Shown piece after piece: positions 21,733-51,335 of a DNA stretch of 64,000 nt. The notes below the pieces were generated by a model, which was given only the letters and a program-made list of their open reading frames with translations, searched no databases and had not been told where the DNA came from. Source of the stretch: Fomes fomentarius (taxonomy: Eukaryota > Basidiomycota > Agaricomycetes > Polyporales > Polyporaceae); the NCBI GenBank assembly GCA_022606135.1, contig JABYQN010000008.1:1612001-1676000 (forward strand), written 5' to 3'. A program made the position numbers and the translations under genes. Numbering within the stretch: the stretch's first letter is position 1; each line of letters opens with the position of its first letter.

Positions 21733-21759
21733 TATGAAGGTCCCCTTTGGACAAAAATA
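21733..21759 (+). repeat. Terminal inverted repeat, element A, gene-1 end
   Basis: TATGAAGGTCCCCTTTGGAC followed by AAAAATA. It matches the gene-1 end of element B (TATGAAGGGCCCCATTGGAC) more closely than the integrase ends, so each end type has its own signature after TATGA. Confidence 0.9.
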
Positions 21760-21765
21760 ATGGGG

Positions 21766-22194
21766 AATCATGCATTCACGACGAATCATGCATGATCACG
21801 AGGGATCACGAGGGATCACGAGTGGTCACACATGATCCCGAGTGATCCCGAGTGTTCCTGAGTGATCCCGAGTGAACACGAGTGAACACGAGTGATCATG
21901 CATGGCCTCCCTGTTCAATACAGGGATGTCACCACTATGGTTCATCTTGAATCATGATGATTCACGATGAACCATGATGAAACATGATGATTCACGATGG
22001 GTACTTTGTCTCGATTGTTATACAGTTACAAAATGATTCATCATGGTTCAGAATGAATCAGAATGGAACTGTATCGACCATCGCTGCATACAAGCCAGGG
22101 AAACCATCTCGAAATCATGGCACCCCTTCTGATTCACTATGATTCACGATGAATCCTCGTGAATCATCGTGAATCATAGTGAATCAGAAGGGGT
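21766..22194. repeat. Subterminal repeat arrays, left end of element A
   Basis: An outer array (about 21,780-21,903) is built of roughly 11-bp units such as GATCACGAGTG, GATCCCGAGTG and GAACACGAGTG. An inner set (about 21,945-22,194) is built of units such as ATTCACGATGA and ATTCATGATGA. The inner part ends in a perfect 31-bp hairpin, arms 22,122-22,152 and 22,164-22,194, starting ACCCCTTCTGATTCACTATG. The same outer/inner order occurs at all four element ends. These are probably transposase-binding or regulatory sites. Confidence 0.88.
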
Positions 22195-22301
22195 CTTATG
22201 TAACCTGTATGCAATGCTGCCCACTCGTTCGACACTGTCGCAGGTTTTTCCTTGCCCTCGCTGCCTCGCTTTGCCTCGCAATCCAAACCTAGTATTCATA
22301 A

Positions 22302-25300
22302 ATGTCTCTGCCTGTACCTTCTTCGACTCTGCGACTCTATCCTCGCACCACCTGTGTGGTACAACACTGTACATGTGCTGCATTTCTTTTACAAACTGGC
22401 CCCAACAATTACCATCCTGTTAGTTCAGCATCGTTGCTAGTGTTCCTGTACAATACTAAGACATGCATCACATAGATTCCTTCTTATCCCCATGCTCAGT
22501 GTGTAATGTGTAACCACCAGTGGTATCAGCACACAGCCAATGTGGGGTTGCTCGAGCCTGACCAACAGCAGCTCGCAACCACATACCTTGCAGGATCGTC
22601 GTCGTTCCCTCAAGGCGAATGTGGTGGTTTCCATCCAGTTCGTTCAGTTTCCTTTGCCCAACCCAGTGGCAATCTTTCATGAACATTCTCCCATTAGGTC
22701 AACTTCGCAGACTGCCAGAACCCTGGAGCGATGTGTGTATGTGGTCAGGTTCGGGCTTATCATACGAATGGGTGCGAGTCAATCTTCGTCACCTCTTTAA
22801 TACTCTTTACTCAATTCTAGTGATCTGGTACTTTTTCAACAGTATTCCAGCATCGTCTAGGGGTGGTCCAACTCCTGACTATACACCATCATCCATCATC
22901 GTCTCGGCAATGTCATCCCCAGGGGTTCCCTCCTCTGCTATGCAATCGTCGTCTATGCCTCCAATCTCTACATCGTCTATGTCTTCTCTCCCCTCATCGT
23001 CGTCTATGCCTTCCCTCTCCTCCTCGTCGCCTATGCCTTCCCTCCCCTCATCATCGCCTATGTCTTCCCTCCCTTCGTCGTCATCTATGCCCTCTCTCTC
23101 TTGTTCGTCTATGTCCTCTCTCCCTTCATCATCTATGTCCCCCCATCACCCTATGATCTCTCCCTTCCAGCCAGCAAGTCAAGCCAATCCTTTCATCCCT
23201 CCTTCTGGTTTCTCTTTCAATGCTCGTCCAATGAATCCTATGAGCATCCCTCTCAACGAAATCCCCCCAATCAGTGTTCTCGCTGGTTCTCTTGCTCGTG
23301 GGCAGAATGTCGCACAACTTCGTACTGCCAGTGCCCAGCGAAATCTTCCACAGCATGCCAGAGCAAACTCGATCAAGGTCACTCGTGGCTCAGCAAAGAT
23401 TACTTCGCCAGCGACAGTCGTGTCCACACGAGCTGACATTGCGATCATCCCTATCCCAGTCAGTGTTCACCTCAGCCCTTGTACCTTCAATACTAATGCA
23501 CCTGGCAGGATGGAAAGGCGATTCGGGACAACGGATATGGCATCTTTCGCCCTTTACACCTCCATTTTTACAACAACGACCTACCTACTTTTCTACAGTT
23601 GCTTCGCGATCGCTCGCTCGTTATCGAGGTGCAGATTGCTCGCTCCTATCGTGAGGAGATCTGGCTGGAACTTCACACCATGATTTCTGCGCATCTCGCA
23701 GTGCATGGTCTCATTCTGCCTTCCGATCCCTCGCGCTCATCTGGAACTGGCGACAATGCACCATTCACTCCTTCTTCTTATCATGATCTTGACTGGGCAC
23801 TCATGGAGAAAAAGCGCACAACCAATGGCTTCTACATTGAATGGGCTGATATCCATGGTAGCTCTGTTACTCTGGAGCGGCTTTTGGCAGGTACTAAACA
23901 TGGCATACCCCATCCCGACGACAAACCAGATAGGCGAGTGGCTCTTATTGCCATATGTGAGTGAGACTGCAGTTATCGCTATGATATCCATTGGCTTACG
24001 ATCACAATATTGGGATATATAGGCCCTCGGTTTTCGCCGATCAAGCTTCCTCTCACTCGGGACCTTGTCCAGGGAGACCCATGTCCTTGTCATGATATGC
24101 CTCACTGCTGTGCTGGCTTTCGGCTGCTTCTGCGGTACATCAAGTATCGAGGCCGCAACAAGGGGGTACCTGATTCATTCGAGTGCGATCACAACTACTG
24201 TCCCTTGTGCGATCTCTGTAGTCGGCACCCAATCCAGTCTCGGACACCACCACGCGCATCTACTTCTACTCGCATACATCCTCGCTCTCCAGGAAGCCCA
24301 CCATCCATCAAGTATGCTCGTACTACCTCATCGACTCGACCTCGTCGTCCTTCAGTATCCCTACCTCCTTTGCAGATTCCAGCTCCATCATCATCTCTCA
24401 CACCAGCTTTCAACACCATGGCTCTCAGCTCTATCTCATCTAACACCCCTGTAGAAGATGATGGTGCAGAGCTATACTTTCCAAACATTCGCGAGATTCT
24501 TGACGAGGACCATGCTCGCCAGCACCCAGTCATCCCAAATACAATTCGCTCATCGCAATCGGGCTCGAATCGTCCCATCGCCCCCTCACAGTCACAGTCG
24601 CAGTCTGTGCCCAACTCGTCATCGTCGTACTTGAGCTTGACCCGTCCGAGTCCCATCGCCCCCTCGCAGTCGCAGTCGCAGTCAGTGCCCAACTCGTCGT
24701 CGTCGCACTCGAGCTTGACTCGTCCGAGTTCCATCGCCCCCTCACAGTCGCAGTCGGTGTCGTCGTCGCCATACTTGGGCTTGACTCATCCGAGTCCCAT
24801 CGCCCCCTCGCAGTCGCAGTCGCAGTCGGTGCCCAACTCGTCGTCGTCGTACTCGAGCTTGACTCGTCCGAGTCCCATCGCCCCCTCGCAGTTGCAGTTG
24901 CAGTCGGTGCCCAACTCGTCGTCGTACCTACAGTTGGGCTCTGCTCATCCAGTTGCACTGCTTCCAGAGCCATCTGAGCCACTACTTCTTGAACATGGGG
25001 AGTGGGTAGAGGCATTGAGCGATGCTCGGTTTGAAGTGCGAAATATGACTATCGCCATTGAGCTCCATGGTGAATCACCACAGGTGTTGGGCCGTGCACT
25101 GCTGTCGTATCTGCAGTACATTGCTGAACATCCTTTGGGACACTATGAATGGGTTAAGCCTGCTGGGGTGGCCGAATTTACACCCTTTGTGGTCAGCGAT
25201 TTGACTGCATCGTTCATTCCTTCTTTCAAAGTGTGAGTCTGCCACTATGGTTTGCAGCCCAAGATGGCTGACCTGGTCTGTAGGGGACAAGCTGTTGGTG

Positions 25301-26844
25301 ATGGTGTCGGTCGTGCAGTGCTTATCGAGGCTGTCCGAACGATGACTAGCGATGCAGCATTCTGGCGAGAGTGTAGAGGGTACATGCAACCAGTCTTTCT
25401 GGATGACAGCACAAGCAATTCCAGTCGCAAAACCACTTGGATGGCCTATGGTACCCTGTGTGGGCTGTACCTCGCTCGGCTCGCTACTGGTCCCTTGCCA
25501 GTCTCACCCTTTCTCATTATGACTGCTTTACTCTCACTCTTTGGGCCTGACTCTGACCAAAATTTTGACTATCTTGGCAACATCCATCCATCTGTCTATG
25601 GGACCGACCCTCGTTATGTTGCCGATATCGTTCTGCCAATGACTGAGCTCGGTAACTTGACTGCCTACGACCCCGATCTCGCCCGAGAACTACAGCCATG
25701 GATAGAGTTGCAGTGGAACGATCCAGTCCCCTCTGACTTCTCGCATCCTGTTCGACAGTTCATCATTGGGGTTCTCGACAAGAATGTATGATCTTCTCGC
25801 ATGTTTACAAACATCGTCTATGTGTCTCACTTGACGACTTCACTCTTAGATCATCGAGGTCACAAGCTCTCGCCAGAGTGCCACTTCCCCAAGTGCACAC
25901 AATGCATGGCTGTTCCAGGCATTCTTCAAATTGGTCTTTGGGCACTCAGGAAGTGTCCTTGGGTTAGGCGAATTCGTTGCTTTTCGCCAAGGGCTCAATG
26001 TTGCAGTTCCTACAGTTGGCGATGTCAGTGATCTCGGCATTCTTCAAAAAGGACCAGAGATCTCTCTGGTGAAGGTATGGCCTTGACATGTACATTGAAA
26101 TAGGCTCTAACATCTATCAGTCAATGGCAGAGGTTATCGATCGCACAGACATTCCTCGATTTGTGCTGGCGATGTACAACCGACGAATTGTCGATGCGAA
26201 GGCATTTTTCAACAAACATATCAGCTTTCCAAACCTCACTAACACACCTTCAACCAAGGGCAAGAATCGGGCTGACCAGCCTGACCCTGCTGTTGTACAA
26301 GCAAAGCTTCGTCGCTTTCGTGAAGAAGTCTTCGTACGACGATTGAAGCGATATCTAACCGAAGGTCGTGGTCACCCACTCTTTCCCAATCTTCACGAGA
26401 CATGCATGCTTTCCTCTGAGGAAGTTATGGCAGAGGTGTGTGTATGATGCTCATGATTAACTGTGTGCTGACATTTTGATTTCAGAGGCATTCGAGCACC
26501 CTTCGAGCGACTGCCTTACTTCGGGCCTTGACTGACTCAGACTTGATTCCAGCCCAGGCTGGGTGGCATATCAATGTAAGCTACTTCTTGGTTCATTCAT
26601 TTCGGACATCAGAATACTGATTCATATTATGACAGTTTGCTTTCCAGCACGACAATGTCCCTGCCAACGAAAACTGGCTATTCATTCACACTTGCACAGC
26701 TAATGTCGATGTTCGGTTTACGACTGAACTTGTCAAGCTGATTACTACAGAGGACATTCCAAAGTCATCCAGTATCGCGACTGGTTTTGATGCTTCCCTG
26801 CATGCCCAACTGTGGCTCGCTCCGAGAAGCTTCAACCGAATCTG
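22302..26844 (+). CDS. Element A gene 1: Cys-cluster, Ser-rich, HECT-like protein
   Basis: The start at 22,302 (MSLPVPSSTLRLYPRTTC) is supported by the homologous start in element B at 50,815 (MSAPTALPPLYPRSQC). N-terminal exons carry Cys/His motifs: CVVQHCTC, CVMCNHQWYQH, ECGGFHP, CVCGQVRAYH. A Ser/Met/Pro-repeat linker and a conserved block (FIPPSGFSFNARPM, IPLNEIPPISVLAG, RGQNVAQLRTASA) follow, then CPCHDMPHCCAGFRLLLRYI with CDHNYCPLCDLC, a second Ser/Gln repeat linker, and a C-terminal part resembling HECT ubiquitin ligases: GPLPVSPFLIMTALLSLFG, LTAYDPDLARELQPWIEL, LVFGHSGSVLGLGEFVAFRQ, and ENWLFIHTCTANVDVRF, whose HTC matches the catalytic-Cys site of the HECT C-lobe. All checked splice phases are consistent. 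The C-lobe is divergent, so E3 activity is inference. Confidence 0.75.
22900..23160 (+). repeat. Coding Ser/Met/Pro microrepeat
   Basis: Imperfect 27-30-bp units translating as MPSLPSSSS or MSSLPSSSS repeat about eight times in the linker of gene 1. Element B has a diverged, shorter version (SMPTTMPMTTSSQSMSIP). This looks like a flexible, fast-evolving linker. Confidence 0.75.
24570..24935 (+). repeat. Coding Ser/Gln tandem repeat in gene 1
   Basis: Five units of about 70-80 bp translate as IAPSQSQSQSVPNSSSS followed by YLSLTRPSP or close variants, in frame. In element B the corresponding linker is a different repeat (SHPTPRLSS, 46,000-46,240), so the linker's presence is conserved but its sequence is not. 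Confidence 0.85.
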
Positions 26845-27229
26845 AATTGGTGGGAGTGGTGGGGATTAGGCGATCATTACGACAGTGTGACTCCTTCTCG
26901 AAGTAGTGTGACCGAGGCTTGGTTCATATAAGGTTTATGGAGTTGTGGTTCGATCATTTGTAGCTTTCTGTGGTAGTATACATACCATATCGTGCTGCAA
27001 CAGACTGCTAGGTTTCTCTTGTAGGTTGACCGACTGCTCGGATATACCCTGTCACTTGTGACATCATATCGCCGAGCAGGTTTCACTCTGCGATCTCAGG
27101 TCACCAATTGTGCTTGTCGTACTTTCGTTTTGCATCGAGTCTATGCTGCTATGGCCTCAGTTTCACGAGCCTGCTCCCCTTCAAATGGTAAGCTGAGACC
27201 TTGGCCATCCCTGGATTCGTGAGCATTGA
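26845..27229. other. Spacer between genes 1 and 2 of element A
   Basis: About 385 bp without a supported gene. This likely holds the 3' end of gene 1 and promoter of gene 2; I see no repeat or RNA gene. Confidence 0.5.
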
Positions 27230-28520
27230 ATGGGGTTCTGGCAATCAGATTCCCCTTCGTCGCCAATGAGTGCTCACTCTAAGTCCCCCGAAGCAGAGGT
27301 AGCTTTGGAGGACATGGATGATGCTGCTCTTCTGGACAACTTGCGAGTGCTTACTCAAACTGGCGACGAAGGCCGATGGGAGGAGATGAGGAGCTTGGTT
27401 GGCTTAAATGCTGGGGGAGTCGAGGTCACAGACCCAGCAGCTTGTGAGGATGGATTTGGCGAGTCTGATTTCACCAACCGATCAAGTGTGAGTTCCAATA
27501 TCATATGTTCAATGGGCTGTGGTGAATGTTCATTGGGTGTATCAGACACCTCTTTTTGGGCCTTCACCACTGGCTGTGACATCGCTTCAGTTGTCGTTGC
27601 CAGGTACTCCGAACATCTCTGAAGGTCCTCTGAACCACCCTTCAGGCCCTCTGAACATTTCGACCAATCTTCAAGGCACTCCAAACAATCGCATTGGTCG
27701 AACTAACTCTCTTGGCTTAGTACATAATTATGATCAGAGTCATCGCGAGGTATGTCGCCGACACATATGTGAACTTCTAGTTCATCTTCTCATCCATGCG
27801 ACTGTGTAGGTGCCGATTCATCTTGAAGGTGGTCACATTTCCTTTCGTTCGTCGCCTCCAAACCTGGCCGAAGTAATACCACAGCCTCCACATCACACTG
27901 CGATGGTCGCACCAGGTTATGTCAACTTAGTATGATTTGATTTGTTCAGCAGTAGACGAGATACCATCCACTCATGGGCAATCCAGGACACATCTACTAT
28001 CTTGGAAGCTCTCTACCCTGATCAGCGAGCAGCATATCATGCTATTAACAAGGCCGACTACAACTCAGGTTACAAGCAGTTCCTTCTCATACGAAAGTGG
28101 CGAGAGGTTCTCACTCTGCTCGAGCTGGTTCCTGAAGACACCCAGGGAACCCTCGTTCAAGGGGTACTCATCACTCCAAAGGCAGTCAAGCAATGGCTGT
28201 CTCCCACTCCAAGCTATGGGACATTCAGTAACTGGCGAACAAACTATGCTCGTGTCCGAGGTGCACACCAAGCTCTCGCAATTAGTGCAGGTCTAGGGCT
28301 CCCTCGCACCACCGAAGAGAACCAGCTTTGGGAGATCGTGAGTCGCTGGGATTGCGAGGCTCTGCTCCCTCCTCGCAGCCAGATCGCTCCTGGATCACTC
28401 GACTCAGTGGCTGCAGGGACGACTGCAAAAGCAGTCAGCGATATGACTGCTACCCTGCAGAAGAAGTATCCAGCTGTAAGCAGCTATTTCCTCAGTGATT
28501 GGATTGAGAGACTCATTTGA
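27230..28520 (+). CDS. Element A gene 2: conserved transposon protein of unknown function
   Basis: I do not recognise the family. An N-terminal acidic segment (LEDMDDAALLDNLRVLTQTG) is shared with element B (DEMDDADLLDTIRNLTQSEE). A low-complexity middle (SEGPLNHPSGPLNISTN) and a C-terminal domain of about 170 residues follow: YNSGYKQFLLIRKWREVLTL, ITPKAVKQWLSPTPSYGTFS, NWRTNYARVRGAHQAL, GLPRTTEENQLWEIVSRW. The C-terminal domain is conserved in element B (YQTGYKQFLLVRQWVKVMDM, NWRTNYNHAVAAKLAL, RSTEETRLWEIVSRWV), so it is under selection or recently copied. It could be a DNA-binding or targeting partner of the integrase; that is a guess from position only. Intron boundaries in the middle third are approximate and the start could also be the Met at 27,266. 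Confidence 0.6.
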
Positions 28521-28624
28521 TACCCTTAGCACTTCACTCGAGGTGGTTGATTTTGTCACAACACCCATAGTATTGTACCTATAGATGTAACAACTGTGTA
28601 CTACATGCAAATCCATCTCACTTC

Positions 28625-30345
28625 CTGGTGCTAATGCTACATCGTCGTCCTTGCCCCGTCGTCTGCACCGTCCTCGCACCCCCACCCACGGCATCGTCCG
28701 TCGTTCGCCTGCCACTCGCCGTCCATCGTGGACATCATGGCCGACGACTGCTGTGGATGTCGTGGCCGTCGTCTGCTGCAGTCGTCCGCCCGCCGTTCAC
28801 TGCCGTCCTCGTTGTCGCCCTGCCGTCGCCCTGCTGTCGTCGCCCTGCTGTCGTCGTCATCGTCGTCCGGGTCGTGGTCGCCATGTGGCCGTTGTCGTCG
28901 CCCTGCTGTCCTCGTCGTGGTCCTCGTCGTCGCCCGGTCGTCCTCGTCGTCCGGGTCGTCGTCGCCCTGCCGCCGTCGTCGTCGTCCTCGCGCTGTCGTC
29001 CGCGTTGTCGTTGCCGTGGCCTGGTCGTCCGCGCCTCGTCGTGGTGGTCGTCCTCCGTCGCGTCGTCTGCGTGGTCCTGGTCGCGTCGCGCCGTCCTCGT
29101 CCTCGCCCCACCGTCCGCGTCGTCGTCCTCGTCGCCGTCGTGGTTGGTCTGGGTGGTCGTTGCCGTTGGTCGCGTGGATGATGATTGAGGCGCAGAAGAG
29201 TGGCTTGACGCCAGTGTGACCTAATATTCAATCTCCGATTAAATATCTTCCCACGCCACAGTGGCGCGTTTGAGTTCGTTCGCCGAATCGGAGATTGAAT
29301 ATCTTCTCACGCCACATGGGCGCTTGGCCCATGTGGCGTGAGAAGATATTCAATCTCCGACTGGATCCTTTGCCAGCGCATGCTCTCTCCCTCTCTCTTC
29401 CCTACACCACCACCACCGCAGGGTGCTGGGCGCAGCGCAGCCGCCCGGGTGCAACCAAGGCCGGTGGTGCGGCCATCGGGTTGAGGCGGGCCCATTTGGC
29501 AAATCCAATGGGCACCCCGCTCGATGGCGCACTGCTTAGGCTGCGCTTGCCCTGGGCAGGTCTCGCAGCTGCACATAAGCCCAGTGCCCCCGGTGCACGG
29601 TGGCAGGCGCAGCGCCGCGCGACGCGGCGGACGCGACGGCGGCGGCGCACGACGGACAACGGACAACGGACGGCGGACAACGGGCACAACGGATGACCGC
29701 AGCAGGCGGCGAGCGGACGGCGGGCACGACGTCCGCAGTGGGCGGCGGGCAGACGGCAGGCAGACGACAGACGGCGCGGCGGACGGCGGTGCGAGCACGA
29801 CGGCAACGACGACGACAGCAGGGCGACGACGACAACAACAGGGCGACGAGGACCCGGACGACGAGGACGACCAGGCGACGACGAGCCGGAGGACGAGGAC
29901 GACCGGGCGACCATGACTGGGCGACCACGACCCGGATGACGAGGACGGCAGGGCGACGAGGACGGCAGGGCGACGAGGACCCGGACGACGAGGACCCGGA
30001 CGACAACTGGGCGACGACGAGGACCACGACGAGGACAGCAGGGCGACGAGGATGGCACGACGACCGCAGTGAACGGCGGGCGGACGACTGCAGCGGACAA
30101 CGGCCACGACGTCCACAGCAGACTATGGGCACGACGTCCACGACGGACGACGGGCGGACGACACGACGACCGCAGCAGACAGCGGGGACGATGTCCACAG
30201 CGGCCAGTGGGCGGACAAAGGACATGGCGACCGCAGTGGACGATGGGCACGATGCAACACATGTCGGCGAAGTGGGTTACAAGGATGTGGATGACCTGTG
30301 GACAATGGTGGGCTATCGAGGGAAGGGCGCGGAGGGAGTGTAGTT
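28625..30345. repeat. GC-rich inverted-repeat block of element A
   Basis: About 28,640-29,200 is dominated by GTCGTC/CTCGTC-type triplets. About 29,640-30,260 is the complementary GACGAC/GACGAG type, so the halves form a large imperfect palindrome around a non-repetitive core (29,220-29,640). Long frames open on both strands at once, as expected from stop-poor GC-rich sequence, and none resembles a protein family. Element B has an unrelated GC-rich inverted-repeat block at the same place between genes 2 and 3. Confidence 0.75.
29288..29360. repeat. Perfect 34-bp hairpin in the centre of the GC-rich block
   Basis: Arms 29,288-29,321 (TCGGAGATTGAATATCTTCT onward) and 29,327-29,360 are exact reverse complements around the 5-nt loop GCTTG. 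A partial copy of the arm lies at about 29,221-29,265 (ATATTCAATCTCCGAT). The arms are AT-rich in a very GC-rich setting, which marks them as a separate module. Confidence 0.95.
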
Positions 30346-30614
30346 GTAAATCAATAACAAACTGTAGCTCTTCGATAGCCTTGTACCATGTAGGACAACC
30401 AATGATAATTTGGTTCTATTGAGTGAAAAATGAGGTTCCAATTGTGCAATTGAATATTGCTATGTGTATACTTTGTGGCCCTTTACCTTGCCGCTTGCCA
30501 CCTTTGCCTGCTTCACCATCCCTACCCTTAGTGCTTGTGTACTCGGCCCTCCTGTAAGTCCACCCATGGTTGGCAAGCTGTGTTGTTGGACTCTACTCAT
30601 ACAATACAGCTATA

Positions 30615-32331
30615 ATGCCGAAGCTTGCAAACTCGCGAGCAACCATCCGAAGTCGTCGGGAGGCTTACACTCGCATCTGCGAGCTACTGGCTCTCCACCC
30701 TCCTTTGCTGAATCTCCTTTCGAATGCCGGCCTGCCAGGGATCTCTCGAACTACATTTGAAACCCTCCTTGCCAGGCTCGTGGAGGACGAACACCTTGAG
30801 ATTCTTGCTGGGCGATCGCCAAAAGTCCTCTTCGATGACTTAATCGGATACATCGTTGCGAACATAGCCGAGGGGCCTCTCGCAGCAGCAGCCAAGAAGT
30901 ATCGGGTGGATAAGAAGGCAAACAAGTGGGTACATCGGTTTGTCGCTCATGAGCTGGGTTTGGCAGGAGCCGATGGTTGTCGGCGAACCGATAGTCTCAA
31001 GACCATCTTCGTCGATAAACTCGATACCCCCTATCCCCCGAAGTCTGCCCACATCAGCGAGGATCCAGATGTCGCTGCTAAGTGGTACGACCACATCTAC
31101 AAGAAGAAACAGGCCGATAGCCGGAAGAAGAGGTGGCCGATTCATGAGCTGGATCCCACTAAGCTCCAGCAAACGATCCCTGCTGATGAAAGTTGCAAGA
31201 TCGTCGATGCCAACACAGGCGAGCTGCTCGCTGTCGTCTGGCGCGATATCATCGCTGCTCGGGATGGAGGGGATAGGGAGGAAGTAGTGTCTGGAGACGA
31301 CACTGTAGGCTTCATCGATTGGGCGATCGAGGCTGTTAAGGATGGTCTCAGGGGCCGCCGGTCTGTTAGGGTGTGTGAGCATTGTTTTGGTCTGTTATAA
31401 CATACCACTCATAAGACTATATGCAGCTCGAGGATCCAGGAACTCTTGTGCAGACTGGCTACACTGCAGGCTCGCGCTCGAAGCCTTCCTTCGACTGGGT
31501 GCGCAATCTGCTTTGGAAGCGAGAACTTACCCCCGAATTCCTCGCCACTGCCGACCACCGCACCAGCTGTCTTTTTGCCATCTTTTGGAACATCTGTCGC
31601 AACCATCTGCCAGCCGAGGTAATCGAACCTTGGGTTGCATACAACGCAGAGCACATGCTTCCCCGAATGGATGGGGGTCTTCGCTCAGACCGCGATACTG
31701 GTGATGTGACCATTGAGCTTGGTGATGATTCTGTGACCTTTCGCGACATGGAGCTCGCACCAGCCTGCGGGTTGCTGGGCCAGAACTACTCCAGGTAAGA
31801 AGCCTTTCCTGTAAGAAGTTTGTCAGCTAACAGCTCTTAAACAGAGGGGTCCATAGTGAGAAACAGCCCCATCCTTTTGCTGTGCAGTGGCTGCTGAGCC
31901 GAAATGCCGACGACACAGCTGGCGCCCATTTCTATCTCGCTGACTATGGTATCAAGATTGTCCATGCCCCAAACACGATCATAGCCTGGCAGCCGAGTCA
32001 TTGTCATGGCACCAGCCTTGGTGATTGGCACCCTGATGATGCGGAACCTGATTTCGAGCAGCTCGGCATCGCTTTCGTGACCCCTCCGCGCCTTGCCCAG
32101 GTTTTCGGACGATACAGCCAGCACTTTAAGCGCCTCTGCACCTCTGCGAGGTTTAGCGATGTCTACACTGCCCAAGATGAGGCTGCGCGGCTTGCAGGGG
32201 AGGAGTTTATTGCCGATACAATTTCTGCACTGCGAGCCACAGGAGGGTTGGAGGACTCTGAAGAAGAATATGACTCGAGCGAGGGGATGGAAGATGAAGA
32301 ATCCGACAACGAGGAGTCGGATGGTGAATAG
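30615..32331 (+). CDS. Element A gene 3: TET/JBP-like 2-oxoglutarate/iron dioxygenase candidate
   Basis: The start at 30,615 (MPKLANSRATIRSRREAYTR) aligns with element B's MPHNSGTRAHCKARKLAFAE. A helical N-terminal region (about 250 aa, including SRKKRWPIHELDPTKLQQTI and DESCKIVDANTGELLAVV) precedes a catalytic-type domain: CLFAIFWNICRNHLPAEV, LPRMDGGL, FRDMELAPACGLLGQNYSR | GVHSEKQPHPFAVQWLLSR, then AGAHFYLADYGIKIVHAPNT and IIAWQPSHCHGTSL. This order (H-x-acid, GGHxYLxDYGxxI strand, distal H before GTSL) fits the double-stranded beta-helix of TET/JBP oxygenases, which act on 5-methylcytosine or thymine in DNA and are known to be linked with transposons in agaricomycetes. The proximal motif is H-x-E here rather than H-x-D. 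The acidic C-terminal tail is SEEEYDSSEGMEDEESDNEE. Confidence 0.62.
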
Positions 32332-32709
32332 GTGGATTGTAAAGTGATAATTAGGTGGATATTATAGAATGATACAAGCAGGTGCTGCGTTGCAGAACCC
32401 CCCTTTCCTTCTTCATCCCATGTTCAAACTCTGTATGATACTTTCTCACAATTATTTATATGGGAGTGCATCGGTGAAGGCCTTAGGTAGGGTGTGCGCG
32501 CATGAGTTAGACAGATTGGCACTTCCTGCAGTTCTCTTCCATAGTGCTGCAATCTCCCTTTCTCTCTTATTCCTGGTGCGAAGTGTTGCGACTCCCAAAT
32601 CTCACCCTGTTGCTTGGCCAGTGTTCTTCCACACTGCCCACACAAGTTCTCTTCGACTCGTCGCCGACTCGCAGATCCGATTTCTGCCCATGCTTTGCCT
32701 TACAATATA

Positions 32710-34606: not shown

Positions 34607-34715
34607 GTTGACAGCTAAAACAGTATAGCAGATATATTTGGAGGGTACACTGTGCAGGACGAGTGCATAAGAGGATGGCTGGTGTTCGTCATCGTAAAGG
34701 GAGCTGCTTGCTTAT

Positions 34716-35228: not shown

Positions 35229-35248
35229 CGAATTAAGCAATCAAATGG

Positions 35249-35275
35249 TATTTTTGGCCTATGGGGTCACTCATA
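35249..35275 (-). repeat. Terminal inverted repeat, element A, integrase end
   Basis: Read inward: TATGAGTGACCCCATAGGCC then AAAAATA. It shares TATGARTGACCCCA with the integrase end of element B. Confidence 0.9.
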
Positions 35276-35419: not shown

Positions 35420-35446
35420 TATGAATGACCCCACTGGACAAAAATG
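35420..35446 (+). repeat. Terminal inverted repeat, element B, integrase end
   Basis: TATGAATGACCCCACTGGAC followed by AAAAATG. Preceded directly by the duplication ACCTCC. Confidence 0.9.
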
Positions 35447-35460
35447 GTGTTGGGATGCAA

Positions 35461-35803: not shown

Positions 35804-35880
35804 CAGAGGCTGCTTTTCATACCTGCTCTTCAGGCTTGTCGTTCGCCTTCAGTATTATTGTACAGCTATAGACATTCACA

Positions 35881-41119: not shown

Positions 41120-42235
41120 TTTCGGTTGGATCGCGAGATGGGTGTGAGCAAGCAGTGCGGGCGACACAGGTCGCAGCGCACGATTTCTCGTGCTCTGCGG
41201 CGCCTGCCCCGGTCGTGCAGGGTCTTAGTGGTGTTTGTGTGGTGTTGAGGATGCGAGAGAGGAGGCCAGGGTAGAACAACAGCGGTGGCGGCCGGCTGGA
41301 GTGCGAGGCGGGCGTGAGCGGGCGGTGCGGGCAGCACAGAAGTCGCAGAGCATGATTTCTCGTGCTCTGCAGCCCCTGCGCCGGTCGTACGGGGTTGTGG
41401 GGGTCTTTGCGTGGTGCGGCAGGCCTGGGAGAGGCAGCGGGGGAGGAAGGAGGACGGTGGAGGCTGGTAGGTGGCGGCTGGGGAGAGAGGAGCCGAGGTT
41501 AGGCATGCAAGGCGTAGGCGGGCAGCCCGGCCCGGCTGGGCGGATTGGTCCGGCCCCCAGCTTGCCAGCACATTGGGCGCCTCGTCCCTCCCTCCCACCC
41601 ACCACCACCACCACCACTATGGCCACCCCGCCTTCCGGCTGCGACGTCTGCGTAGGCATTGTGACCGGCTGGGGGCACCCGTTTGGCAGGGCCAACGCGT
41701 ACCCTGCCAATGTTGCAATGCTTGCGAGCGCGGAGCAGCCAGTTTGGGCACCCAACACCACAATGCCCCCACCTCTCTGCCCCCACCCCTCCCGCCTCCT
41801 GGCCAGGTCCTCCCACGAACACCCAAGACCGCTATAAGGGCCGCACAGCACGCGAGATCGTGGTGTGCGACCCGCAGCGCCAACCCACGCCCGCCTCACA
41901 TCCCAGCCGGCCGCCGCCGCTGCCGATCTACCCCCGCCTCCTCTCCCGCATCTTCAACACCACGCAAACACCCCCACGACCCCGTACGACTGGTGCAGGG
42001 GCCGCAGAGTACGAGAAATCGTGCTCTGCGACTTCTGTGCTGCCCGCACCGCCCGCTCACGCCCGCCTCACATCCCAGCCGGCCGCCGCCACCCTCCTTC
42101 CTCCCCCGCTGCCTCTCCCGCATCTTCAACACCACAAGAACACCCCCACGACCCCGTACGACCGGCGCAGGGGCTGCAGAGCACGAGAAATCGTGCTCTG
42201 TGGCCCCGCTGTGCTGCATCCCTCACTGGCCCTGA
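41120..42235. repeat. GC-rich inverted-repeat block of element B
   Basis: A unit of roughly 170-180 bp containing GATTTCTCGTGCTCTGC, CCGGTCGT and GGCGGGCGTGAGC occurs about twice at 41,130-41,460 and in inverted orientation about twice or more at 41,830-42,230, around a GC-rich core. Frames are open on both strands without recognisable proteins. Position (between genes 2 and 3) and architecture match the block in element A, but the repeat sequence is different. Confidence 0.75.
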
Positions 42236-42468
42236 TGTGTCTTACATGGCTGACACCTGCCTGTGACTGGTATCGCGATGCACCTGCCCGAGGGACCCAC
42301 GACCATGCTCAGCACTCTGTACTACCAGGTAGGAGATTGTTGGGCACAGGATGTGACGATCTGCGACCATTCTGCCATAATAGAAGACATTCGTTTGTAA
42401 ACCTTAGTACAGTTTGCAATCCAAGCCATTTAGCCACCCCGAGTAAACCACTGCCAGCATCACTGATC

Positions 42469-43726
42469 TTAGCAACGAGTATTTACTTTGCAAGAGGGCA
42501 TTCTCACCTCTGCATATGTTGGTTTCTTCTTCAAGTTGCGACACAGAGCTGCAACCTCGTGGGCTTTGACATTGACTGCAACTTGATCCCATGCATTCTC
42601 GGCTCCTGGAGTGACCTGAGTTCTCGTCTTAAGGGTATCCTTGCCAACCCATCTACTGACGATCTCCCACAGTCTTGTCTCCTCAGTAGAACGAGGGATC
42701 CCCCGAACACCATTGACATCAAGTGCGAGCTTCGCAGCGACTGCATGGTTGTAATTCGTGCGCCAGTTACCGAAAGTGTGCCACTTGGGCTCGCTTGCAA
42801 GCCAGTCCTTGACATGCTCAGGAGTGATGGTGACACCATCTAAGACAATTCCTCCTGAATTGTCGTGGCGGAGACCGATCATGTCCATGACCTTGACCCA
42901 TTGTCGCACGAGCAAAAATTGCTTGTAACCTGTTTGATAATTAGCCTGCTCATACTTGGCCCATTCCACCGGAAGCTCTCCAAGGCATTGATCAAGCACC
43001 TCCGAGGCATTCTAAGTGTCCTAGTGAGCCTCAGTTGCATGGTCAGATGTAAGAGCTGAATACGATCTGTGGAGCGACCATTGTGTGTGCCGATGTGAGG
43101 GGATCCTGAACCCATTGGGAAGAATCCCACTGAGCATTGGGCACTATCGTTGATTGATAGTAGGCCCCTGGAATATCGCGAACATCACAACTGTTGGCAG
43201 GAATGTCTGGCATGATTGAGTCGGCGACTGGGGCACTGGCACCCAAATTCTGCTTGATAGCAAGTCGGCAAAATCATACTGCAGTGGAAACCATAGACAA
43301 CATACCTCGGGCTCGGCAATGGTCAATCCTAGGGTGGAATTGGAGCGACTGAGGTGGCTATCTGGGAATAAGGGAGCATCGGCGACAATTGGTGTTTTCG
43401 TACTGTCACTGCCAGGTGAGGGAGGCAAAACAGACTCCTGTTGAAAGCAAATGAGAATATGTATGTCTCCAAACCCCAAGGGAAATAACCTGAACCCCAG
43501 CAGCATTCTGAGATGCATTGTCCCAAACAAAGTCCAATTCGGGAAGGCCAGATTGACGACTTGGTTCTTGTAAGCGAACTACTTCCTTTTGAGCCTCAGT
43601 CTCAATGACCCAGTTCCAAGTCCCTGGTTCCTCAGACTGGGTCAAGTTCCGAATCGTGTCCAACAAATCTGCATCGTCCATCTCATCGGTACTTCGGTTG
43701 CCAACTTTGTTTAACGACACGACCAT
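42469..43726 (-). CDS. Element B gene 2: conserved transposon protein of unknown function
   Basis: Start at 43,726 (MVVSLNKVGNRSTDEMDDAD), aligning to element A's LEDMDDAALLD region. Central pieces are SDSTKTPIVADAPLFPDSHL and NLGASAPVADSIMPDIPANS. The conserved C-terminal domain (GELPVEWAKYEQANYQTGYK, QFLLVRQWVKVMDMIGL, ITPEHVKDWLASEPKWHTFG, GIPRSTEETRLWEIVSRWV) aligns with gene 2 of element A over about 170 residues. Several introns; the 3' end is taken at the first stop after KKKPTYAE. No known family recognised. Confidence 0.58.
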
Positions 43727-46700
43727 GGCGAAATATTACTCAGCTTCACAAGATCAAGGAATTGAATCTATTGCTCACCGACCTTCAACATCTGACCCAA
43801 CAGGGGATATGTCGCCTGAGGGCAGTTCAGGCATGGTTACCTGGATTTGAATGGGTAGAGAGATGGAAAGGAAGGGGCATCGATAGGCGATACTAAGCAA
43901 GGCTCAAGTGTGATGTCACACTGACTCTGCAGTCACATCAGCCACTCGAAGCAAGTCATATCATGCAATACCTAGGCAGCCTCACTGTTGCAATATTCTA
44001 CACAAATAAGAACTACCAATGTCGTAGAAGATTGGCTCCCAGCCCTCAAGTACACCTGAGAACTACAGAAACCCAAAATGATATAATGCTGTGTCCGACC
44101 TGCTTCGCGAACCACCCACAATGACGACACTGTCGTAATGGACCTAGATGTGATTGTATTGCATCGGGGCTGTCCACAGCAGCTGGTGGAGACTAGCATC
44201 AAATGCAGTGGCAGTCTCTGGAGGCGATGAGAGATTGTTAGCAGTTATTAGGACATTAAGTTCTTCGGTAAACCGAATGTCGATTGTCGCAGTGCAAGTG
44301 TGAATATGGAGCCAACTGCTGTTCGGCTCCACATCCTCATGCTGGAATTTGATCTGCACAATTCCAATAAGTCATGCCTTGGCCCAGAGATGCAACCCAA
44401 TTACTTACGAGAATCTGAAACCACTGATCAATAGGAATGAGAACCGAGTCGGTAATAGCTCGGAGCAATGCTGTTGCTCAAATCGTGGAAGACTCTGCCT
44501 AGAATGCAGCATCAGACAACTTGGAGACTGTGCGACTTGGACTGCACATGGCACCACATACCTCGGATGCAAACTCTTCATCAGAAATCATGCATGCCTC
44601 GCATAATCCAGGATAAGCAGGATGCCCAATACCTTGTGTGAGATATCGTTTGAAACGACGGACAAACATGCGTTCCCGAACAATCTGGAGTTGTTGTGCT
44701 CGTGACACAGAAGGTGTACCGAGGCCATCTTTGTTCTTGTCCTTTGGCCCTGGCTCCTTCGTGAGAGTGACAGCGATAAACTTGACATAGAAATCTTTGG
44801 CATCCACCACTCGTCTGTCGTACATTGCCAAGACGAAACGAGGGATGTCATCTCGGTCCAACAGCTCTGACAAAGACTGGTAACATCCTTTAGTACCTCT
44901 CTGTCAAGCAACACAGGTATAGACTAGGCTCACACTGATGAGAGAACTGCTATTTTTCTCGTCAACGACAGGTACTTGAATGTTCAGGCCATCGCGAAAG
45001 GCGATAAACTCGCCCATGCCTAGGATACTCGATGAATGGCCAAAGACGAGCTTGAAGATAGCCTTGAACAGCCACACATTGTGTGACTCAGGGGAGGGAT
45101 CACTATCCCTGGTGTTCGTCACCTCGATGATCTGTATCGCACCATAATGGTTAGCTAACCCACTAGGTTTCTCGCATACGATACAACACATACATTTTGC
45201 TCGAGAACCTCAATGATAAACTGTCGTGCAGGGTCACTATAGTCTGATGGTAGTGGCTTATCCCATGGCAACAGCAGCCAGGGACACAGCTGCTGTGCAA
45301 GGTCCCTGTCAAGAGCTCCGAGAATCGAAAGCTCAGCGAATGGCAGGAGGACATCAGAGATATAGCGGGCATTAGTCCCTGCAACTGCAGGATGCAGGTC
45401 ACGAAGATACTGAAATTTGAGATCCTCGCTGGAGCCGAAGAGAGCGAGAAGAGCAGTCATAATGAAGAAGGGCGAGACAGGAAGTGGAGCCAAACCGAGA
45501 CGAGCAACGTAAATCCCACATAGGGTGCCAAATGCTCGCCAAGTGCTTTTGCGATTGCTATTGCTGGTGCTGTCATCGACGAAGTCATATCATCGATCAC
45601 TGCAACAAGCAATGAACGGACAACACCACTGCCAAGTCCCCTGCCACTGAATTGATATCAGTATCACAATCCGAATGGCCATGAAAGAAATACATACACT
45701 GAGATAGTTGGTGACCAGCAGGCCACAAAATCGAGCACCTCGAATGGTGTGAACTTGGTGACCCGAGCTGGAACAGCCCATGCATCGCGAGACCATTTGA
45801 GAGGTTGCTCAACAATGTGCTGCACATAGCTTATGAAAGCTGGAGCGAGCTCTTCAGGTGAACGAGCCTCCAGCTCAATATAGATTTTGGCTGCATCTTC
45901 CTCATCCCTTGCTTTCTCAAGTGCCCCAAACCACTCAAAGAGTTGTTCGCTCAACCCTTGTGCAGGTGGAGGAAGAGTGAGACTTGGGATGCCAGAAGTC
46001 CTCATTGATGATGACAGCAGCCTTGGAGTTGGGTGCGAGCTCGTCGACGATGACGACAGCCTTGGAGTGGGGTGCGAGCTCATCGACGATGTGGACGACA
46101 ATGACGACAGACTCGGAGTGGGGTGCGATCTTGTCGAGGGCGACGACAGCCTCGGAGTGGGGTGTGAGCTTGTTGGGTGCGAGCCTGTTGGGTGCAAGCT
46201 CGTCGGGTGGGAGCCCATCGAGGACAGCTGTGGAGTCACTATTGGGAGGGTAGTACTCTGTTGGGATGTGCGACCAAGGGTGTCTGCCTCAAGTATGTCG
46301 CGAATAGAGGGAAAGTCGCCATCAGAATCGCACAATCCATCTTCTACACTGTACTCCAACGACATCGTGTCAAGTCCTGGAGTAAGAGATGATGAAGCCC
46401 CTGCAATGTTCAAGGGAGTGGGCGAATCTGAAGGGCGACAAGGCCGGAACAATGAAGACTCGGTTCGTGCATATTTGATTGAGGGTGGAGTGGGTGGGGA
46501 ACGAGGGTGGATACGTGATATCTGCGAGGGGCGAGGAGGTGTTATTTGTTGGCGAACCTCCGGAAGGTATCGTGCAGGGTCGCGATCGCAAAGAGTGCAA
46601 GGTGGACACCTGTTGTCGTCACACTCAATAGTCACTGGAACTGGAACACGGGTGCGACCACGGAATTTGATATACCGAAGAAACATGCGAAATGCAGTGC

Positions 46701-48387
46701 AATAGTGTGGCTGGTCATGGCAGGCACAGATGCGACCAGCTCCGACAAGGTCGTGTGAGAGTGGAAGTGCGAGTGATTGAAACAGAGGGCCTAAGATGGT
46801 GAATGTTCAGGGCAAGAGCTACAGCACACACTAAACTCACTCACATATGAGAATGAGACACACATTCTTGTCCAATGGATGTGGTATCAACTTGAGCAAC
46901 TTTTCTAAGGTCACGTCGACAGGATTAAGATCAGCCCATTCCAAATAATAACTCCTTTCAGGAGCCCGGGTCTTTTGCATGATACCCCAGCCAAGCTCGT
47001 GATAGCCAGCAGGAGGTGGGACTATCGCCGAAGACGACGAGGTTGGCGGCCCCGATGATGATGTTGCGAAAAGAGGGAGATGAAGATTGGTAAGATGGGA
47101 TCGGACAGCTGTGTCGATCTCTGGGCAGATCGGCTGGGTATGTGGTGCTTCAAACTCGATATTATCGATGAGCAAAGCATGCTGTTGAAGGGAGACCAGG
47201 ATTGTCGGGATGTCGCTGTTTTGTATATTAAGATGGAAAGCTTTGAGGAGGCCATGACCAGACTTTTGGTGCTCAGAACCATCCTAACCAATGTAAGATT
47301 GGCATTTGTCATACCCCCACTAGAGCTTAATGTGCTGGACTCACTGCGATTGGGACAATCCCTATCTGAACCCGTGTTTTCATGCGCACAGAATTGGTTG
47401 CTGTCGCTGCAGCAACTGCCTTGCCAGAGCCTCGAGTAACATTGAGCGTGTTCGCAGCAGCATGCTGAGGAAGGGCACTTGCAGAGCGCAGCTGGGCGAC
47501 ATTGCGACCCATCGCCAATGGACCAGACAGTGCTGCGATCGGCGATATGGCAGGAACCTCATTCAGAGGAACACTCATGGCTGAGATTGGCCGGGGATTG
47601 AAAGAGAACCCAGAGGAAGACATGAAGGGATTGTACATAGTAGAAGGAGAGGTGGCATTGGGCATATTCAAGGCTGAATTGGGGATAGACATAGATTGAG
47701 AGGAAGTGGTCATAGGCATAGTAGTGGGCATAGATTGAGACGAGAACGAAGGCATAGGTGCACCAGATGTAGATGTAGACAAAGACTGGTTGGGCGAAGG
47801 CACCCCAATAGACAACATGGCCGAAACAAGATACGAAGACGACGGGTAGCCACTGGTCAGGGTCGTACCCCCAAGTGGGCCAGAGACACTCGCCGAGTCT
47901 CCACCTGAAGTCATCCTGTGCTGTGCATGTCAGATTAAATGTTGGTGAGTATCGAACGAGACAGTCGCACCCAGTATTAGCATGGAGGCTTCGTTTCTGG
48001 CCACACACACACACTGCCTCTGGATTAGGCTGGTCTGTGAGAGTAACCTGTAGCAATCTGACTCAGTGATGAAGACAGTAGAGCTCTAGATGGCAAAACG
48101 AACCGGGTGGTACCCTCCACATGTCGTCTCCAGACATGACAGGTGGCCTGATAAGTACGACAGAGCAGGTTGTTTCATATTGGGAGTGAGCTTGTCGATG
48201 TCGACTTTGTGCTGGAACCAAGGGTGACTACACATCGCACAATCGGTTTGTGGATAGGGGGAACCTGTGGATGTCAAAGGACATGTAAGTATCTATCGGC
48301 CCTTGCTTCGGTACTACAACAGATAAAGAAACTAACATGGTAAAACTGGTCCTGCACTTGTATTATAAAGGCCCGACAGTTACACCT

Positions 48388-48602
48388 TGTAATGGGCTGT
48401 AGCCCGAGCCCGGCGAGGTCTGAGTGCGAAGACTTGATTCGAGGGTCTGAGATGTAGTACAGGGGTATGGAGGACGAGGTGGGATGGGGCTCGGGTGCCA
48501 ACGCCGTGTACTGGCGTTGGTTCGTCTGGAGAAACGAGACATAGCGTAGAGCGTAACTAGGTGAGTCCAAAACAGGAAGGTCACGGTCACGGTGCCGTTA
48601 CA
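48388..48602. repeat. LTR, left copy
   Basis: 215 bp, starting TGTAATGGGCTGTAGCCCGA. Relative to the right LTR it carries TpG or CpA at five of the seven variable CpG sites. Confidence 0.95.
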
Positions 48603-50544
48603 CTACCTCCTCCTTTAAGCTGCGGCTCGAGGAGTGGGTGACGAGAGACAGAGCTACTAGTAAGTATGCAAGCAAGGGGGACTAAGTAAAGAATGCGAGA
48701 GGATCAAAAAACATGAAATAACTGAATAACAATAAGTGGTAAACGACGTAGTGCATGGACGTGATACCAGAACGGGGGCAAGCAAGAAGCGGGGGCGGAC
48801 AAGATGATGTGGGGGACTAGACATGAGACGGGAGAGGACGGGATACGAGACGGGGTGCTGCGAGAGCCATAGACGAGACGAGAGGGGTCCGTACATACCA
48901 AACTTATGGCTATGTCGGTGTCCAGGGGAGAGCGACTCCCTCAGGACCGAAGTTGTCAACCCAGAGGGACGGGACCATGGGAAGACCAAAGACGAGGGTG
49001 AGAACGAGAAGAGCATCGAGCCAGTTAAGATCGTAGCCTAGGCCTGGACACGACCCCCGTAAGCCGAGAATACGAGGCACTCGACGGTTAAGACCGTAGC
49101 CTAGGTCCGTGAGTCCAAGCGGATGCAAAGGAGGACGGGACGGGAGGAAGATATGGCCACTGCCGATTCTACCTGGGTGTCGACGCGGTTTGACCACTGC
49201 CAAGGTGCGTGCGACCGGACAGAAGGATGCACTGGGAAAGAACAAGAGTCGGGGAGCAAGGACGAGGGATGTGATGTGGATGCGATGGCTGAGCGATGAC
49301 GAGAGGTGATGGTGCTGAACATGAGTCAGGGTGCGGCGAGGAAGAGAGGTTGATGATGATGTGAATGGGCAGTGCGGGATGGTCATGGGTCGAGGACATC
49401 GGTGAGATAAGTCAATAGGGGAGACCAACGGCGACTGGATAGCGACAAGTTGAGGGAATGGAACCGAGCATAAGTCGGGATGCGGTTGAAAGGAGCGTGT
49501 TGATGATGTGAATGAGAGAGCGGATGGGGTCAAAATCGGGGTACGCCGTGGTAACGAAGGTCAAGAGTTACGAGAGGGGTCGAAGGTTGGTTGAAGTAAC
49601 GTGGAATGAATGTGGAGCGGGGCGTGAAGGCGATGATAACAAGAGGAATTGAAGATTTTTGAAAAACGTTGAAAAATCAGAGGACACCGCTCGTCCCGAG
49701 GCGGCGTCCAGCGAGAGGAAAGGGAGAGCGCGTTGTGCTGCACGCTACGACGGCCAGGAAGAGAGGCCCGGGTGGAGACCTGCATCCTCGCGATGTTCTC
49801 CACCTCTGCTGCGAACCTGCATGGATGCGCCGACTGTGCTCCGGCGTCCTACGCACCCTTCGGCCTGCCTCCACAAGTCGTCCGGGAGGTCTCCACGGAT
49901 GCTCGTCCGTCGCGCCTGCTTTGTCCTCACATCCGTCTGGAGGTTCCGTCTTCACTACACCTATCCCCCTTTTTTCCGCCGAGGCTTTCCTCGACGGAGC
50001 CTGAGGAGAGGAAAGGCGAGGTGATCCGAAAGAAATGGGCCGGAGGAGAGGGGATGGAGGGTGGGCTTGACTTAAAACAGCAGTTGCGAGGGTGAGAGTG
50101 GGGAAGACGACGGCAGGACAGGAGGATAATTGGGCCGTGACGGGGGTTCGAGAAGATGATCGGGAGGGTGGACGAGGAGGAAGGAGAAAAAAAAAAAAAA
50201 AAAAACAACGGCGACAAACCGTTCGCATGTAACCAGCGAGCCTTCGACTAGAAGCGAGCTCCGACCGTCCGTAGTAATGGAGTGGTGGGCGACGGCCAGC
50301 GATGAATCATATGAGCGACGGGGGAAGGGAGTTGCTCTGCGGGCGGATAGGGGCTAGGCGGGCAGTGTCGAGGCCATGAAAATGTGCTGGCCTGTGGAGC
50401 ATTGACAGGCGGGTGCAGCCAGAGTGAAAGGCGAAGGCGAAGCGAAGGGATCGGGAGTCGATGGTGACCGCGAGGAACGACGGCCAAAGGAGGGTGCGAG
50501 GGCCGAACGGCTTGACGTCTCGCAGGTTCGGAGACGAACCAAAC

Positions 50545-50759
50545 TGTAACGGGCTGTAGCCCGAGCCCGGCGAGGTCTGAGTGCGAAGACTTGATTCGAG
50601 GGTCTGAGACGTAGTACAGGGGTACGGAGGATGAGGTGGGACGGGGCTCGGGTGCCAATGCCGTGTACTGGCGTTGGTTCGTCTGGAGAAACGAGACGTA
50701 GCGTAGAGCGTAACTAGGTGAGTCCAAAACAGGAAGGTCACGGTCACGGTGCCGTTACA
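50545..50759. repeat. LTR, right copy
   Basis: 215 bp, starting TGTAACGGGCTGTAGCCCGA. Carries TpG at the other two of the seven variable CpG sites. Confidence 0.95.
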
Positions 50760-50897
50760 CACCTGCCACACTGGGAGCGAGGATACAGGGGGGGCAGAGC
50801 AGTAGGGGCAGACATTGCGAAAGGTATAGCGAGCAGTATAGCAAGCGAGAATCGAAGGCCAGTGGAATTGGGGAACAATGCTTCGGATCCTTTCACA

Positions 50898-51291
50898 GGT
50901 AATCATTGTGAATCATTGTGAATCATCGTGAATCACAACGATTCACAATGAATGATGCTTGGACCAGCACCCAAGGCCATGCACCTCGCACACAATATGA
51001 GATCCGAGCCATTGTGTTTCACAAGGATTCATGATGATTCATGACAATTCATCATGGTTCACGATATAAGGACCTTCGATGGTGTATTGTACAGTGGTAA
51101 CAGATGACAAGCAGTAACGATGATTCACGATGATTCACGATGTGTGTCTCAGCCTGTCCTCGACAATTCACTCATGATCACTGATGATCATGAATGATCA
51201 CTCGGGTTCATTCGTGTTCATCTGTGTTCATTCGTGTTCATCAGTGTTCATTAGTGTTCATAGGTGATCATTAGTGATCACGAGTGATTAC
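50898..51291. repeat. Subterminal repeat arrays, right end of element B
   Basis: Inner units such as TGAATCATCG and GATTCACGATG (about 50,898-51,145, interrupted), then outer units such as GTTCATTCGT and GATCATTAGT with TGATCA palindromes (about 51,173-51,291). Mirrors the other three element ends. Confidence 0.87.
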
Positions 51292-51302
51292 TTCATTCCA
51301 AT

Positions 51303-51335
51303 TGTTTTTGTCCAATGGGGCCCTTCATAACCTCC
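51303..51335 (-). repeat. Terminal inverted repeat of element B, gene-1 end, with TSD
   Basis: Read inward from 51,329: TATGAAGGGCCCCATTGGAC then AAAAACA. The duplication ACCTCC follows at 51,330-51,335. Confidence 0.92.

Follow-up and report, generated by a model that had tools for sequence, protein, structure and literature searches.

A four-gene transposon family in Fomes fomentarius with IS3EU-type ends and integrase, a candidate TET/JBP-like oxygenase and a HECT-like protein

How may mobile DNA escape silencing by its host, and can one element carry the enzymes to do so? The question is raised by a 64,000-nucleotide stretch of the 40.9-Mb genome of the tinder fungus Fomes fomentarius, a polypore of the Polyporales (C8:1612001-1676000, hereafter the window; coordinates without a contig prefix are window positions, and C3, C14 and C18 are other contigs), in which two large elements lie side by side in opposite orientation. 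An earlier note on this DNA had described them as a DNA transposon family joining a DDE integrase, a TET/JBP-like oxygenase, a HECT-like protein and a further protein. The transposon family is real, and the outer coordinates given for both elements proved exact. The reading that we favor, at a probability of about 0.72, is that of an autonomous IS3EU-type cut-and-paste transposon, whose oxygenase would counter host methylation at cytosine-guanine dinucleotides (CpG), and whose HECT-like protein would target a host factor.

The two elements, here called A and B, share termini, subterminal arrays and four genes in identical order, as had been claimed, and both are flanked by perfect 6-bp target-site duplications (TSDs):

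21733-35275, plus strand: element A, complete transposon, 13,543 bp
21727-21732: left TSD of element A, GTCTGA
35276-35281: right TSD of element A, GTCTGA
21733-21757, plus strand: left terminus of element A, TATGAAGGTCCCCTTTGGACAAAAA
35251-35275, minus strand: right terminus of element A, inverted, TATGAGTGACCCCATAGGCCAAAAA
21781-22190: left subterminal 10-bp arrays of element A, TGATCAYNNN/TGAACAYNNN outside and TGATTCAYNN/TGAATCAYNN inside
34717-35240: right subterminal 10-bp arrays of element A
35420-51329, minus strand: element B, complete, 15,910 bp including a nested long terminal repeat (LTR) element, inverted relative to A
35414-35419: TSD of element B, ACCTCC
51330-51335: TSD of element B, ACCTCC

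Genome-wide protein and pattern searches recovered three further full copies, and the notion that the same termini would bound this gene set elsewhere, with 6-bp duplications, was borne out. Type A comprises element A together with C3:3028891-3041983 and C14:309237-322568, at a mutual identity of 97.8-99.1% over aligned bases (element A is 97.8% identical to the C3 copy and 99.1% to the C14:309237 copy), and type B comprises element B and C14:206470-220059, which is 87.0% identical to it. All five full copies start with TATGA and end with TCATA, giving TA..TA termini; the terminal inverted repeats (TIRs) are short and imperfect (~25 bp), and 10-bp-phased subterminal arrays adjoin the ends of both elements. 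Perfect, abutting 6-bp TSDs were found in four of the five, while the C3 copy is flanked by CGTCCT on either side but has three extra bases (TAA) ahead of the left terminus, a displaced duplication (C3:3028879-3028890) that looks as if the joining had been imprecise. Scanned across the whole genome, the pattern TATGANNGNCCCCNNNGGMCAAAAA matched 10 times and its reversed control not once; the scan missed one end of the C14:206470 copy, where the inner bases differ. The terminal words TGGACAAAAA and TATGANCCCC by themselves are not above chance within the window; termini, TSDs and repeated copies combined are beyond chance. A third type is represented by a truncated relative on C18 (from C18:254081 downwards), which retains the left terminus and a gene 1 that has diverged; the 19 kb examined showed no other element gene. 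The family looks recently active, because near-identical copies with TSDs exist and the integrase frame is open in all three type A copies.

The genes of the two elements are as follows:

22506-26845, plus strand: gene 1, HECT-like, ~1270 amino acids, at least 10 exons (22506-22637, 22698-22777, 22861-23458, 23509-23956, 24023-25232, 25284-25785, 25850-26074, 26121-26435, 26486-26575, 26636-26845); splice sites are those of our model, with the first exon or exons not resolved
27230-28520, plus strand: gene 2, protein of unassigned family; exons between these limits not modelled exactly
30615-32331, plus strand: gene 3, 2-oxoglutarate (2OG) oxygenase candidate, 536 amino acids, exons 30615-31370, 31427-31794 and 31845-32331, with HSE and a distal His
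32710-34606, minus strand: gene 4, integrase, 559 amino acids, five exons (34439-34606, 33766-34384, 33469-33709, 33193-33413, 32710-33140)
35904-37746, plus strand: integrase gene of element B (matched region), reading frame broken
38407-40139, minus strand: oxygenase gene of element B (matched region), HHE motif
42523-43011, minus strand: gene 2 of element B, conserved domain
44147-48235, minus strand: gene 1 of element B (matched region), HECT-like end with HTC

Do these genes belong together? Their order and orientation are identical in types A and B, and they travel together, as the earlier note had surmised, in all five full copies of the F. fomentarius genome. Whole-genome match counts, all of them lower bounds, agree: at least 10 exon matches for the rva_4 integrase, at least 15 for gene 3 and at least 12 for gene 2 all lie inside the five full elements, and at least 23 for gene 1 (query: the C-terminal 473 residues) lie in these and in the truncated C18 relative. 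The gene set also carries a purifying-selection pattern between the types. Comparison of element A with the C14:206470 copy, a better partner than element B, whose values include broken-frame stretches, gave a proportion of synonymous differences (pS) of 0.68-0.75, near saturation, and proportions of nonsynonymous differences (pN) of 0.15 (integrase), 0.36 (gene 3), 0.33 (gene 1) and 0.39 (gene 2, over 160 codons). With element B as the partner, the pN values in the same order were 0.23, 0.37, 0.36 and 0.40, and A-versus-B-type comparisons overall spanned pN 0.15-0.40 against pS 0.68-0.76, with saturated synonymous sites leaving the ratios rough. Values of pN/pS among A copies (0.37-0.81) come from few changes and were not used. 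Purifying selection in all four would mean that the genes have been kept together over a long divergence.

To which class does the element belong? The catalytic residues of gene 4 are D259, D316 and E351, the last two spaced by 34 residues, in agreement with the DD34E integrase that had been read from the sequence. The protein matches rva_4 (4e-62) and rve (2.5e-8) in Pfam, and IS481 (2.8e-11) and IS3 (5e-4) in NCBIfam, where every score is under the curated cut-offs, and a pattern search of its first 268 residues found no HHCC motif. IS3EU elements are described, in passages of PMC10045372, as having TA..TA ends and usually 6-bp TSDs, and because the ends, the duplications and the IS481/IS3-like DD34E integrase correspond to these described features, we place the family as IS3EU-type. 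A DDE integrase core without HHCC is common to it and to IS3EU/GingerRoot, IS481EU and prokaryotic IS481/IS3, and TSDs of 6 bp are, as here, usual in IS3EU/GingerRoot and in most IS481; autonomous IS481EU families, by contrast, are said in the same passages to encode one protein (PMC10045372), whereas the Fomes element carries four. IS3EU is annotated in Ganoderma and Phlebopus, in passages that give no gene detail. The earlier note had seen no KDZ (Kyakuja/Dileera/Zisupton) transposase, and a Pfam scan of the predicted proteins likewise gave no match; with TSDs of 6 bp, and not 7-8 bp, a KDZ identity was rejected.

Do the copies bear the mark of host methylation? Among the three type A copies, C-to-T changes from the majority state were counted at 155 of 4627 CpG site-observations, against 39 of 15825 at other C/G positions, a 13.6-fold excess per site (p 1e-64), and these 155 changes account for 47% of the 329 substitutions counted. 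There was no TCG preference (TCG 68/2022, CCG 32/686, ACG 27/894, GCG 28/1016), and the ratio of observed to expected CpG was 0.72-0.87 in the elements against 0.98-0.99 in the window flanks. The paired LTRs of the element nested in B differ at seven positions, every one of them a CpG transition, which points to repeats being methylated at CpG. In exon 1 of the element B integrase, an in-frame TGA occupies a codon that reads CGA in element A and in two of the other three full copies (a search for the surrounding motif found nothing in the C3 copy), and by this comparison the TGA is a C-to-T change at CpG. Because the mutation spectrum of the copies has this excess at CpG and matches methylation followed by deamination, we infer that the host methylates them at CpG. 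According to a 2026 review, in the passage concerned, CpG methylation in most Basidiomycota is confined to transposon-rich regions (PMC13297926).

Against this background, gene 3 is of particular interest as a candidate PE-type TET/JBP-like oxygenase, an assignment suggested at the level of motifs. Its HxE is invariant among the gene 3 sequences (HSE/HHE/HRE/HTE), and three of the four sequences compared extend as far as the distal His, which in each of them stands 51 residues from HxE; CcTet and an AG-type relative encoded by the host have HxD and His 50 residues apart. The hallmark of PE-type TET/JBP proteins is HxE, and the type occurs in IS3EU of Tuber, as stated in passages of PMC12730594. 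Relatives of gene 3 occur in Lentinus tigrinus and Lyophyllum shimeji, and gene 3 is open in two of the three A copies. The host relative was the one match of a Tet_JBP genome search (C18:387602-387961) and lies outside these elements; it is a fragment of an AG-type TET with an HQD motif, matching CcTet at 3e-10. A genome search with PF20515 gave no lead, and its control was equally silent.

Gene 1 has a Cys-rich N-terminus, a Ser-rich middle and a C-terminus that resembles a HECT C-lobe. A profile of its last ~100 residues (five sequences) gave nine PDB matches at E up to 10, of which the top five are HECT structures (four of SMURF2 and one of HUWE1, E 0.034-0.54) and the remaining four are not, and the whole-protein profile gave three, all SMURF2 (E 0.21-2.2). 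In profile-profile comparison with the three HECT C-lobes of the host, the gene 1 end scored 25.4, which none of 200 column shuffles reached (maximum 16.9); a larger gene 1 domain compared with HECT gave P 0.012, with reversed controls at 0.086 and 0.17, a weak result. The cysteine at the HTC position is catalytic in HECT ligases. That of gene 1 aligns with HECT in both alignments shown by the search that found SMURF2 and HUWE1, and it is invariant in all five aligned gene 1 sequences. The residue at position -4 from the gene 1 end is aromatic in five of five (F in two, Y in three), the stop codon positions having been checked in the five full copies, and HECT ligases are known to require a '-4 phenylalanine', as a passage of PMC3738095 states. 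Relatives of gene 1 were found in Pilatotrama ljubarskyi (1e-15) and, weakly, in Mycena crocata (3e-4). Its public annotation is C8Q74DRAFT_1219405, a model that fuses gene 1, gene 2 and part of an inverted repeat into a protein of 1627 amino acids, likely an annotation error.

Taken together, these features suggest the following course of events. The DD34E integrase would bind the TA-ended termini, probably aided by the 10-bp subterminal arrays, and would excise the element and insert it with 6-bp staggered joining, of which the termini and the duplications are observed. Copies would become methylated at CpG by the host, as their mutation spectrum implies; gene 3 would most likely oxidize methyl groups on the DNA of the element, keeping its genes and termini usable. 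Gene 1 would, with less assurance, most likely ubiquitylate a host factor limiting transposition or silencing, and gene 2 would be a conserved accessory protein. A link between ubiquitylation of histone H3 at K23 and DNMT1 was found in mammals. H3 ubiquitylated at K23 stimulates the recruitment and activity of the DNMT1-type enzyme, a matter described in the passage concerned as uninvestigated in fungal homologues (PMC13297926), and the maintenance-methylation machinery is therefore one conceivable target for gene 1. It would be a bolder and rather doubtful step to suppose a two-pronged counter-silencing, in which the oxygenase erases CpG methylation on the copies and the HECT-like ligase undermines how the maintenance methyltransferase is recruited or stabilized through ubiquitin.

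Several results weigh against the reading of an autonomous, methylation-countering transposon. Several copies contain broken genes: gene 3 is out of frame in the C3 copy, and of the three A copies element A alone keeps the gene 1 model open, the C3 and C14:309237 copies showing stops that may in part reflect alignment through variable repeats. The naming of gene 3 as TET/JBP-like stood as far as HxE and a His at TET-like distance are concerned, and went no further, as searches of Pfam, NCBIfam, PHROGs and PDB, profile searches included, gave nothing meaningful. A profile comparison with a CcTet-type pair was equalled by 4 of 200 shuffles with the alignment out of register, and the AlphaFold model of gene 3 was unusable (predicted local distance difference test, pLDDT, 35.4). 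For gene 1, the resemblance of the C-terminus to a HECT C-lobe upheld part of the original naming; Pfam HECT was not reached at E up to 10 (four sequences) or 1, the HECT match is confined to the C-lobe with PDB E no better than 0.034, and the profile of the last 470 residues (A3) lost it, its sole match being MreB. No N-lobe similarity turned up in the gene 1 profile searches. Because this evidence is mixed, we call the protein HECT-like and not a HECT member. Special protection of the subterminal arrays from CpG decay was also considered and rejected: CpG changes are few there (2/210 versus 153/4417 outside, p 0.047), and so are other substitutions (5/2752 versus 158/31873, p 0.019), so that with general substitution equally low the arrays give no evidence of targeted demethylation.

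These points bear unequally on the alternatives. That the CpG pattern reflects a process like repeat-induced point mutation (RIP) and not standing methylation, in which case the oxygenase would protect against mutation instead of reversing silencing, is unlikely: CpG-specific C-to-T change explains every difference within the nested LTR pair, but the absence of a TCG preference is unlike the rust pattern, hypermutation is stated as undetected in Agaricomycotina in passages of PMC12730594, and the two processes are not mutually exclusive. It is also rather improbable that, in a genuine transposon, gene 3 encodes some other 2OG oxygenase, with protein or RNA as its substrate, or no oxygenase at all, and that the methylation link is accidental; the missing match to any TET and the failed structure model favor this, and opposed to it are the HxE and distal His at nearly the CcTet spacing, which form the published PE-type hallmark, the seating of PE-type proteins in fungal DNA transposons, Tuber IS3EU included (passages of PMC12730594), and the CpG decay in the element copies. 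Genes 1-3 might instead be passengers, captured by chance and hitch-hiking on the integrase without benefit, as the broken genes and a C18 relative with gene 1 as the only element gene found would allow; a gene set common in content, order and orientation to two types with near-saturated synonymous sites, and a pN well under pS for each gene, weaken this, and we regard it as very improbable. Scarcely credible is membership in another integrase-bearing class (Polinton/Maverick, Ginger or LTR-derived). The integrase does match rve, and passages of PMC10045372 give Polintons 6-bp TSDs as well, but they give Ginger 4 or 5 bp; short imperfect TIRs of ~25 bp, TA ends and the missing HHCC argue against all three, and, the integrase core aside, the Pfam hits of the predicted proteins include neither a Polinton nor a gag-pol domain. 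Neither protein-primed PolB nor virion genes were among those hits, PolB not having been searched by name. On TIRs, TA ends, HHCC and domain content together, a Polinton, Ginger or LTR origin was rejected.

How new is an autonomous IS3EU-type element with such cargo? The earlier note knew of no described element with this gene set, which holds in part: in the passages of PMC12730594, Kojima (December 2025) reports TET-bearing IS3EU in seven Pucciniales and in Tuber indicum, and a HECT-like gene in such an element was not found in print, in a literature search that covered neither subscription journals nor Repbase. The TET and IS3EU pairing is thus already known, and what is new relative to the main text of that paper is the HECT-like partner and the agaricomycete host; that text has no TET-bearing IS3EU from Agaricomycotina and the word HECT is absent from it. 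The Fomes family shares with the elements described there an IS3EU-type transposase, 6-bp TSDs, TA..TA ends, an oxygenase gene flanked by the transposase gene and a further accessory gene and, with the Tuber family, the HxE of the PE type (PMC12730594). In the same passages the rust elements have TIRs of >30 bp ending in TAYGG..CCRTA, whereas Fomes has TATGA ends, and the TET gene stands between the transposase and an alpha-kinase gene, whereas in Fomes no alpha-kinase was found and the HECT-like gene and gene 2 stand instead; the hosts likewise differ, an agaricomycete here and Pucciniales and Tuber there. The carriers of TET genes that the paper gives for Agaricomycotina are Kyakuja, Zisupton, EnSpm, Plavaka and Helitron2, with only Kyakuja in Polyporales. 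KDZ and Plavaka are likewise fungal DNA transposons with a TET/JBP gene, but have different transposases and TSDs of 7-8 bp (Kyakuja/Dileera/Zisupton) or 2-3 bp (Plavaka), and Kyakuja enzymes are of the AG type, unlike the HxE-bearing gene 3 (PMC12730594, passages concerned). A precedent for a transposon with a ubiquitin-pathway enzyme is found in the VTD deubiquitinases encoded by Helitrons, as passages of PMC9741609 describe, although here the gene is ligase-like and the element of DDE type. Gene 1 shares a C-lobe-like segment, the aligned HTC cysteine and the aromatic residue at -4 with HECT E3 ligases such as SMURF2 and HUWE1, and differs from them in that an N-lobe was not detected by the profile searches, Pfam HECT was not reached, and the gene is borne on a transposon. 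To our knowledge, no described transposon combines a DNA demethylase and an E3 ligase.

The Fomes elements would thus extend TET-bearing IS3EU to mushroom-forming fungi, with a four-gene cargo that appears to have been kept by selection in two diverged types and that adds a ubiquitin-ligase-like partner, unmentioned in the main text of the paper on such elements (PMC12730594). With near-identical copies under strong CpG decay in one genome, the idea that an oxygenase defends a transposon becomes directly testable, and the element is a natural case well suited to testing how silencing may be evaded by mobile DNA.

The remaining features of the two elements are these:

28699-30168: GC-rich inverted repeat of element A, between genes 2 and 3, arms 28699-29069 and 29768-30168
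41174-42200: GC-rich inverted repeat of element B, arms 41174-41443 and 41931-42200
48388-50759: nested LTR element in element B, 2.37 kb, LTRs 48388-48602 and 50545-50759, not part of the transposon
48383-48387 and 50760-50764: TSD of the nested LTR element, CACCT

Gene 2 has a conserved C-terminal domain of ~160 amino acids within the open frame 27936-28520, and its 177-amino-acid C-terminal part, as used in Pfam, gave no lead there; none came from PDB either. Pfam scans of the protein models, gene 2 being represented by the same part, contained no alpha-kinase, and on Pfam and PDB profile scans this identity was rejected for genes 1 and 2; an Alpha_kinase genome search was empty, as was its control. 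In all five copies gene 2 is separated from the oxygenase gene by an inverted repeat, whose arms align at best over ~270-410 nt with 68-88% complementarity and whose GC content is 64-68% (three measured). No DNA similarity was detected across these repeats between types A and B, so that the structure is kept without the sequence; a hairpin RNA or a CpG-island-like promoter region is possible. The nested LTR element is absent from the closest relative of element B. Element A, for its part, has a host gene as its neighbor, with an exon of Peroxin-3 (Pfam 7e-22) at 19079-20041, ~1.7 kb from the left end of the element.

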